Shown one piece after another: positions 34,042-64,000 of a stretch of 64,000 nt of DNA. The notes under the pieces were generated by a model. That model saw only the letters and a program-made list of their open reading frames with translations. It was not told the origin of the DNA and searched no databases. The DNA comes from Streptomyces sp. NRRL F-5122 (lineage in GTDB: Bacteria; Actinomycetota; Actinomycetes; Streptomycetales; Streptomycetaceae). The stretch lies in assembly GCF_001507435.1 (NCBI RefSeq), contig NZ_LMWH01000172.1:1-64000 (forward strand), in the 5' to 3' direction. Each line of letters opens with the position of its first letter. Positions within the stretch are counted from its first letter, which is position 1. The translations under genes were made by a program, and so were the position numbers.

Positions 34042-34052
34042 CGACTCGTGCG

Positions 34053-34091
34053 ACGGCGCCCGGTCGGGGACCCCTCCCGACCGGGCGCCGT
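34053..34091 (+). terminator. Terminator after the deformylase gene
   Basis: Perfect 16-bp stem beginning ACGGCGCCCGGTCGGG, loop GACCCCT. Confidence 0.85.
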
Positions 34092-34311
34092 TCATGTGTG
34101 CGTCGCACATTCGATCCCTTGCACACCTGAACCGATCCATATTCAGTCACGAGGGGGAGATTCTCGGCACTGTGGGGTGGTGAGTGGAGCAAATCCGTTC
34201 CCAGAACGGTCAGTTGTAGTGCTCAATGGAAAGCGCGGGGATACGCAACGGCGCGCGCCCGGCACGGCGGGAGGGGCGTGCTGCCAACCGGCGGCTGAGA
34301 GGGGTTTGTTC

Positions 34312-35397
34312 GTGCCAGCTTTCCCACACAGCACTTCATCGACGGTGATCGTGGCCGCGGTTCCACCGGCGCTCTCCTTACCGGTGGTCGAGGCCGAGTT
34401 TCCACGTCGACTCCACCCGTATTGGCCCAGCCTGCAGGAGAAGACGCGTTCCTGGCTGCTGGAAAAGCGGCTGATGCCGGCGGACAAGGTCGAAGAGTAC
34501 GCCGACGGGCTGTGCTACACCGACCTCATGGCGGGCTACTACATCGGCGCCCCCGACGAGGTCCTGCAGGCGATCGCCGACTACAGCGCGTGGTTCTTCG
34601 TCTGGGACGACCGCCACGACCGCGACATCGTCCACCGACGGCCCGCCGCCTGGCGGCGCCTGAGGCTCCAACTGCACGAGGCCCTGGACTCTCCCGGGGA
34701 CCATCTGCACCACCCGGACCCGCTGGTCGCGGGGTTCGCCGACAGCATGGTGCGGCTGTACTCGTTCCTGAGCGAGAAGTGGAACGCGCGCTTCGCCCGG
34801 CACTTCCACACGGTGATCGAGGCGTACGACCGGGAGTTCCACAACCGCACCTCCGGAATCGTCCCGACGGTCGACGCGTATCTCGAACTCCGCCGGCTCA
34901 CCTTCGCGCACTGGATCTGGACCGATCTGCTGGAGCCGAGCGCGCGCACGGAACTGCCGGACGCCGTACGGAAACACCTCGGATACCGGCGGGCGGCGCT
35001 GCTGAGCCAGGAATTCGCGGCCTGGTACAACGACCTGTGCTCACTCCCCAAGGAAATTGCGGGAGATGAGGTCCACAATCTCGGAATCAGTCTCATCCAT
35101 CATGAGGGGTTGACGCTCGAAGAGGCCATAAAGGAAGTACGCCGGCGGGTCGAGGAATGCGTTTCGGAATTCCTTGTCGCCGAGAAGGAGGCGTTGCGAT
35201 TCGCCGATTCCCTTACGGACGGTACCGTGCGCGGCCGGGAATTGAGCGTCGCTGTGAAGGCGATCGTCGCGAATATGCGGAACTGGTTCAGCACCGTGTA
35301 CTGGTTCCATCACGAGTCCGGCCGGTACATGGTCGACAGCTGGGACGACCGCTCGACACCCCCGTACGTCAACAACGAAGCGGTAGGTGAGAAATGA
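34312..35397 (+). CDS. cyc1: epi-Isozizaene synthase (sesquiterpene cyclase)
   Basis: 361 aa, the same length as the S. coelicolor enzyme. It cyclises farnesyl diphosphate to (+)-epi-isozizaene, the albaflavenone precursor. The aspartate-rich DDRHD is at 99-103 and the NSE/DTE magnesium triad reads NDLCSLPKE at 240-248. Aromatic residues of the pocket (WFFVW at 94-98) are kept. I chose the GTG at 34312 from length and from the GAGAGGGG site. Its stop overlaps the CYP170 start, so enzyme and oxidase are coupled. The low-GC3 stretch near 35090-35300 is a local oddity. Confidence 0.95.
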
Positions 35398-36788
35398 CCC
35401 TGGAATCGTCCCCCGACCTCTCGGCCGCGCCCGAGAAGGGGGCACCTTCGAGGTCGGCTGAGCCTCGCGTCCCGCCGGTCGCGGCGGGCGGTGTGCCCGG
35501 CCTCGGTCATGGGTGGAAGCTGGCCCGCGACCCGCTGGGCTTCCTGTCCGGGCTGCGGGACGACGGGGAGGTCGTTCGGCTGAAGCTCGGGCCGAAGACG
35601 GTGTACGCCATCACCAGCCCGGCCCTCACCGGCGCCCTCGCCCTCAGCACCGACTTCAAGATCGGCGGTCCGCTGTGGGAGTCGCTCGAGAGCCTGCTCG
35701 GCAAGCAGGGGGTGGCCACCACCAACGGGCCGCTGCACCAGCGTCAGCGGCGGGCGATCCAGCCCGCCTTCCGGCTCGACGCCATCCCCGCCTACGGGCC
35801 GATCATGGCGCAGGAGGCGCACGACCTCGTGGAGCGCTGGCGGTCCGGCGCGACCGTCGACGTGATGGAGGAGTCGTTCCGGGTGGCCGTCCGGGTCGCC
35901 GCCCGCTGCCTCATGCGCGGCAGCTACATGGACGAGCGGTCCGAGCGGATATGCGCGGCGCTCGCCACGCTGTTCAGCGGCATGTACCAGCGCATGGTGA
36001 TACCGCTCGGACCGCTGTATCGACTGCCGATCCCGGCCAACCGCGAATTCAACCGTGCATTGGCCGATTTGCATCTCCTGGTCGACGAGATCATCGCCGC
36101 CCGCCGCGCATCCAGTCAAAAGCCGGACGATTTGCTGTCGGCTTTGCTGAAGGCGAAGGACGAGAATGGCGAGCCCATTGGGGAGCAGGAGATCCATGAT
36201 CAGGTCGTCGCCATAGTCACGGCCGGCAGCGAAACGGTCGGCTCCATGGTCATGTCGCTGCTCCAGGTCCTCGCGGATCATCCGGAGCAGACGGACAAGA
36301 TCCACGAAGAGGTGAAAACGGTCGTGGGTGAGCGGCCGGTCTCTTTCGGTGATGTCCGAAAGCTGCCGCACACCGCGAATGTCATCGTCGAGACAATGCG
36401 TTTGCGTCCCGCCGTATGGATATTGACGCGGCGGGCGGTGACCGACACCGTGCTCGGCGAGTATCGCATTCCGGCCGGGGCCGACGTCGTCTACAGCCCG
36501 TACGCCATACAGCGCGACCCCCGGTCGTACGCGGAGCACAACGAGTTCGACCCCGATCGCTGGCTTCCGGAACGGGCCAAGGACGTTCCCAAGTACGCGA
36601 TGACCCCGTTCGGGGTGGGCAACCGGAAGTGCCCGGGCGATCACTTCTCGATGGCCGAGCTCACGCTGATCACGGCGGCCATCGCGTTCGCCTACCGCTT
36701 CGAGCAGGCACCCGGGTCCGACGACAGGCCTCGCATCGGCATCACGCTGCGCCCGCGCAGGCTGTTGCTGAAGGCCCTGCCGAGGTGA
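35394..36788 (+). CDS. cyp170A: Cytochrome P450 CYP170 (albaflavenone synthase)
   Basis: 464 aa. Heme loop [10 protein letters not shown] with Cys413, ETMR for ExxR, and an I-helix motif AGSETV. In S. coelicolor CYP170A1 oxidises epi-isozizaene through albaflavenols to albaflavenone and has a second, moonlighting farnesene synthase activity. The I-helix carries Val where most P450s have Thr/Ser. The ATG overlaps the cyclase stop (ATGA). The gene ends 16 nt from the convergent regulator gene. Confidence 0.94.
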
Positions 36789-63348: not shown

Positions 63349-63671
63349 GGCCGCCTCCTTCGCGCTGCGTGACGGGCGCCGGTCGCGTCCGCCTCGTGGA
63401 GCCGCTTGTACCGGCGGCGGCCCTGCTCGCGCCAGCCGTTCGCACGGTGTGCGAGCCGATCCGGTCAGCACCCGGAATGACGGGGACTGGGCCGCCCGAC
63501 CAGGGAGTTCACGCCCGGTCCCGCACCGGCGCGGCCCTGCCGGGCAGCGGCTCGCCCGTGTGCCCAGGCCGATGATGATCCATTCCCGCTCTTTTGGGTA
63601 ATGGCACGGACACGCTCCGTACTGAAGGCTTGTTCCCGCAGATCACAGCATGATCGGGAGGGGCATTCTCT
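63349..63671. other. Gene-free interval before the encapsulin-like gene
   Basis: 323 nt. It should hold divergent promoters for the amidase and the EshB-type gene. GGGTAA at 63596-63601 resembles a SigB-type -10 element but a matching -35 is not convincing. No gene is seen. Confidence 0.55.
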
Positions 63672-64000
63672 ATGTCGGTAGGCGAAGAGGTCCGCGCTGA
63701 GGGCAACAAGCCGCAGCAGAGTCTCGGCACCACGGCCGCGCGGAACCTGGCCACCACCACCAAGTCCGCACCACAGATGCAGGAGATCAGCTCACGGTGG
63801 CTGCTGCGCATGCTGCCGTGGGTGGACGTACAGGGTGGTGCGTACCGTGTGAACCGCCGTCTGGCCTACTCGGTGGGCGACGGCCGCGTGACGTTCGTGA
63901 AGACCGGCGACCAGGTCACGGTCATCCCGGCCGAGCTGGGCGAACTGCCCGCGCTGCGCGAGTACGAGGACCTGGAGGTGCTCGGCGAACTCGCCCGGCG
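63672..64000 (+). CDS. eshB: EshA/EshB-type protein: family 2B encapsulin shell, N-terminal part
   Basis: The first 109 codons of a gene cut by the window edge. It begins [20 protein letters not shown], then [20 protein letters not shown] and [16 protein letters not shown], which I recognise as the N-terminus of the EshA-family (long annotated as cyclic-nucleotide-binding proteins). These are now classed as family 2B encapsulins: an HK97-fold shell with an inserted cNMP-binding domain, often paired with terpene cyclases or polyprenyl transferases as cargo. S. griseus EshA forms large round multimers. GGGAGGGG precedes the ATG. The HK97 and cNMP parts lie outside the window. Confidence 0.85.

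Follow-up and report, generated by a model that had tools for sequence, protein, structure and literature searches.

Does an open frame that runs off the edge of a Streptomyces sequence belong to a real encapsulin shell gene, and what would such a shell enclose? The window analyzed here is the whole 64,000-base stretch from Streptomyces sp. NRRL F-5122, bases 1-64000 of the 161,862-base contig NZ_LMWH01000172.1, in a genome of 10.16 Mb that is 99.99% complete. At its right edge, a frame on the forward strand opens with ATG at 63672 and reaches the edge with no stop (63672-64000, the first 109 residues). With a probability of about 0.9, we explain this frame as the start of an EshB-type family 2B encapsulin operon with a single shell component, whose shell would house an isoprenyl diphosphate synthase.

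On the same contig, the frame continues past the window and its stop ends at 65078, which gives 468 residues with 0 internal stops. NF041163, the NCBI model of the family 2B encapsulin shell, matched residues 17-466 along its full length (model positions 1-450 of 450) with 770.3 bits, compared with a curated cut-off of 400 bits. The family 2A model gave 359.3 bits, under its cut-off of 380. PF19307 (SrpI-like) matched residues 216-466 (455 bits, E 6.7e-137), and PF00027, the cyclic nucleotide monophosphate (cNMP)-binding family, matched residues 114-201 (65.7 bits with a cut-off of 27.5, E 3.8e-18). The cNMP-type domain sits between the N-terminal part and PF19307; its placement in the E-loop is taken from solved relatives. 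The family 2B encapsulin of S. griseus (9BHU), whose domain order is identical, aligned with residues 14-467 at 669.5 bits (E 2.3e-200). These comparisons confirm the match of the frame as real and not chance. The PF19307 match, together with the near full-length matches to solved shells, argues by homology for an HK97-type shell domain. The original prediction had read the fragment as the start of a family 2B encapsulin with an inserted cNMP domain, and had proposed extending the sequence past 64000 and searching it with shell and cNMP profiles. The frame completes, all three models match, and both parts of that reading stand.

The next gene lies on the same strand, 144 bases after the shell gene (65223-66347), and encodes a prenyltransferase of 374 residues. 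It matched NF041169, which NCBI names "family 2 encapsulin cargo polyprenyl transferase", with 486.7 bits against a cut-off of 450, and proteins 97% identical to it bear the NCBI name family 2 encapsulin cargo. The two catalytic Asp motifs, DDVMD (130-134) and DDVIG (262-266), are intact and invariant in this protein and in 24 homologues picked from the 120 matches listed. In an AlphaFold model with an overall predicted local distance difference test score (pLDDT) of 83.6, residues 1-36 and 137-139 fall below 50. Beyond the N-terminus, the model has a standard polyprenyl synthetase fold, with 3NF2 from S. coelicolor as the best match (template modelling scores 0.84/0.93). The cargo model match, the position beside the shell gene and the predicted disordered N-terminal extension make this enzyme the probable cargo. 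A true cargo to the right of the window had been expected, and a listing of the next genes had been proposed; the first gene after the shell is of the kind named, a prenyltransferase with a disordered N-terminal extension.

The locus is a member, with no essential difference, of the family 2B prenyltransferase operons described in PMC8346489, which pair a shell with a polyprenyl transferase whose N-terminus is disordered. That survey catalogued 900 such operons, 888 of them in Actinobacteria. The system is already known: it is of a catalogued kind, is structurally solved in relatives and has close annotated relatives, which makes it an ordinary find. What has been gained is that an edge-of-window guess is settled, with a real and complete shell gene and a probable cargo gene adjoining it, and that the nearby terpene cyclase is assigned to another pathway. 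The present copy could serve to test questions about the family: the ligand of the inserted domain, the loading of the prenyltransferase, the terpenoid made, and the retention of such a shell by almost all sampled genomes of the family.

Gene order was compared in 80 named relatives chosen by closeness of the shell, all of them Streptomyces, Kitasatospora or 'Actinobacteria bacterium' records. In 78 of these relatives, the shell is succeeded by a match to the prenyltransferase; two of the matches counted are cut by contig ends (L031 and L071). The two exceptions are L025, whose contig ends too soon, and L012, which has no prenyltransferase match; presence could be judged in 79 of the 80. At E <= 1e-60, a shell match, meaning any related shell including paralogues and not EshB orthologues alone, was present in 294/297 genomes of the family. 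The prenyltransferase cargo model was over its cut-off in 91/121 genomes of the genus. A phylum-wide draw gave the shell model over its cut-off in 14/296 genomes, 9 of the 14 in Streptomyces. Because of these family and phylum-draw counts, the shell is described as common in the family and patchy outside it.

In the mechanism that we propose, the shell protein (63672-65078) would self-assemble into a shell of about 28 nm with 60 subunits (T=1) and the HK97 fold. Its cNMP-type domains would face outward, over the two-fold pores. From the adjoining prenyltransferase gene would come an isoprenyl diphosphate synthase resembling a geranylgeranyl diphosphate (GGPP) synthase. The enzyme's disordered N-terminal ~36 residues would probably carry it into the shell, where chain elongation would take place, presumably with GGPP as the product. 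The size, the symmetry and the domain placement, as well as the lack of cyclic-nucleotide binding discussed below, are carried over from published relatives. PMC12407261 gives the family 2B shell as a 28 nm T=1 particle, and PMC8346489 presents loading of the prenyltransferase through its disordered N-terminus as suggested, not demonstrated.

The present shell adjoins a prenyltransferase gene, whereas the 9BHU shell of S. griseus is linked to the 2-methylisoborneol (2-MIB)-synthase system. Sl-Enc1 (9BJE) and Sl-Enc2 (9BIX) of S. lydicus, which are family 2B shells like the present protein, matched it at 615 and 616 bits, respectively. S. lydicus has two shell genes, whereas the present genome has one over the shell cut-off. 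No second shell gene was found genome-wide by NF041163, and a pair within 10 kb, as expected of a two-component system, is absent. When compared with its own genome, the shell protein gave one full match, and the sole other match covers the cNMP part only. Diagnostic motif 1 of the shell is RRRG, which aligns to RRRK in Sl-Enc2 and not to TVWK in Sl-Enc1. According to PMC12407261, Sl-Enc2 self-assembles and Sl-Enc1 is unable to form shells by itself; the two-component encapsulin of S. lydicus is discussed there as a xylulose kinase system.

By gene context, the shell is probably the paralogue of the EshB type and not EshA, the one linked to 2-MIB. EshB is favored because the next gene encodes a prenyltransferase, and because an epi-isozizaene synthase gene lies upstream, an arrangement that agrees with S. 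coelicolor. There, the epi-isozizaene synthase gene (SCO5222) lies similarly far upstream of EshB (SCO5249). PMC3878966 gives SCO5249 as eshB of S. coelicolor. Orthology to this EshB is presumed from context.

If the N-terminus of the prenyltransferase docks to the shell, a short conserved peptide at its extreme end might be responsible, of about the form M-[GA]-E-F-M-T-E-T and followed by a hypervariable linker, but we regard this weak lead as doubtful. A loose form of the pattern was found in 37 of 72 N-regions (dereplicated from 79, the 78 relatives and the window), compared with a mean of 0.4 in shuffles, and a stricter DNA pattern in 35 of 81 loci (the 80 relatives and the window). These counts are to be read with script-picked start codons, related sequences, and a DNA pattern that itself fixes some of the conserved letters. 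In codons 3-7 of the tag, conservation at the third position is roughly equal to that at positions one and two, and the tag may reflect ancestry or a translation-start sequence. A second element was seen in a subset of N-regions: ERR in 21/72 (3.5 in shuffles) and IGT in 9/72 (0.8 in shuffles). The 2021 survey reported no conserved motif in prenyltransferase cargos (PMC8346489). No targeting motif for this cargo was announced in the literature searched by title and abstract start, which included neither preprints nor most subscription papers. In L018 and L036, the N-terminal linker of the prenyltransferase is greatly longer by script reading, but the match to the catalytic part remains good; the extension in L018 is built of repeats of a PAPRPETPPLHG-like unit.

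Several observations weigh against an operon whose shell houses this enzyme. In a Streptomyces metagenome bin (L012, 3361-3702), the acetyltransferase gene comes after the shell and no prenyltransferase match intervenes, a gap that is possibly an assembly artefact. In S. brasiliensis (L038, 8520-8966), the shell is intact and the prenyltransferase is without its catalytic middle and both Asp motifs, with the N-terminal region retained. In L075, the prenyltransferase match lies in two pieces in different frames. Because of these three loci, the pairing of shell and prenyltransferase is not absolute. The genome holds three polyprenyl synthases, two besides the one beside the shell, and the supply of GGPP therefore need not hang on the shell-linked enzyme. 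The predicted shell structure, made for the window protein and 11 close relatives, scored a pLDDT of 32, and for this reason the HK97 fold is read from homology. Self-assembly of the protein and loading of the prenyltransferase by its N-terminus are presumed by analogy with relatives. Finally, 46 of the 81 loci fall outside the stricter tag pattern, a number that includes L012 and L025 (no prenyltransferase shown) and some loci, such as L033, with a tagged-looking protein. Across both patterns, at least about half of the related cargo N-termini do not conform to the short tag.

L012 and L038, which retain the shell without an intact prenyltransferase, also fit the older view of EshA/EshB, in which the protein, whether shell or regulator, acts in development independently of the enzyme and the prenyltransferase is a mere neighbor. 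Several papers point the same way: S. coelicolor up-regulates its eshB (SCO5249) in development (PMC3878966), the gene has been named as possibly targeted by AtrA (PMC13170358), and eshA is reported as dispensable for 2-MIB formation (PMC6428758). SCO5249 also appears among the transcript changes tabulated in PMC3610822. However, a mere neighbor does not account well for a match that adjoins the shell in 78/80 close relatives, for the existence of a dedicated cargo family (NF041169), or for a disordered N-terminus common to the prenyltransferase and known family 2 cargos. We consider a purely developmental role improbable. A cyclic-nucleotide-gated compartment is a good deal less likely still. 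In this explanation, cyclic AMP or a similar molecule would bind the inserted domain and open or close the two-fold pores over the cargo, and the compartment had indeed been proposed as 'nucleotide-responsive'. The PF00027 score is well over its cut-off, but the position presumed to align with the canonical phosphate-binding Arg of E. coli CRP is occupied by Trp in 119 of 120 distinct shells and followed by Glu in 113 of 120 (mostly close relatives, with identity to the window shell 55-91%, median 87%, with 11 of 119 below 75%). The Arg and following Ser or Thr that would mark a functional cyclic-nucleotide-binding domain appear to be missing. The solved structures place the cNMP-type domains above the two-fold pores, in favor of gating, but the same 2025 paper reports that the inserted domains lack cyclic-nucleotide binding and suggests a ligand of some other kind (PMC12407261). 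The nucleotide-responsive part of the original prediction is not supported; a different ligand may control the two-fold pores.

The window also holds a terpene cyclase gene and, next after it, what by eye looks like a cytochrome P450 (P450) gene (34048-36788), on the same contig as the shell and about 28 kb from it. A functional partnership of this pair (34-37 kb) with the compartment can practically be dismissed. The cyclase was identified as an epi-isozizaene synthase, with a match to 3KB9 at E 3.8e-211 that is aligned from chain residue 21 to the end, and with the adjoining P450-like gene it presumably forms a pair of the albaflavenone type, a terpene pathway already known from Streptomyces. 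The model f2_encap_cargo2, which we take to be the terpene-cyclase cargo model, had no match over its cut-off in the genome, and the analysis found nothing that links the pair to the encapsulin. This agrees with the earlier remark that the cyclase is not an obvious cargo. The terpene synthases in the genome are this single-domain protein and a two-domain protein on contig C227, which we take to be geosmin-synthase-like.

Column counts over the 120 shell sequences, mostly from close relatives, show a conserved N-arm at residues 17-45 (63720-63806, forward strand), preceded by a variable N-extension. The N-arm resembles GPTGLGTSAAR, the motif found in encapsulin terpene cyclases according to the 2021 survey (PMC8346489). 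Mimicry of the shell was scored over ungapped stretches of 9 residues against 200 shuffles. The idea was rejected for prenyltransferase cargo: among the 66 of 78 N-regions that passed a length filter, only one scored at <= 10 shuffles, no more than chance, and that of the window gave 105/200. For terpene cyclases, 29 N-regions were tested from 30 loci, one being too short. Four of the 29 matched the N-arm through LGTSAAR or IGTSAAR at <= 4 shuffles, and 10 of the 29 matched at <= 10 shuffles, six of these through other stretches. The carriers of LGTSAAR or IGTSAAR (L154, L155, L157 and L165) resemble shell residues 16-24. For terpene cyclases this could hint, as a weak lead, that cargo and shell N-arm share a docking groove. 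In the 805-residue frame on C227 (L152, G000), a contig other than that of the shell, LSGIGTSAA lies between the two terpene synthase domains and resembles the survey motif reported for encapsulin-linked geosmin-type cyclases.

A promoter and terminator scan of the shell-prenyltransferase operon found none. By sequence reading, a probable ribosome-binding site, GGGAGGGG, lies on the forward strand at 63656-63663, 8 bases before the ATG of the shell gene. After the prenyltransferase gene comes a GNAT acetyltransferase gene (66579-67175), and a match to this acetyltransferase is present in 38/80 of the relatives' loci.
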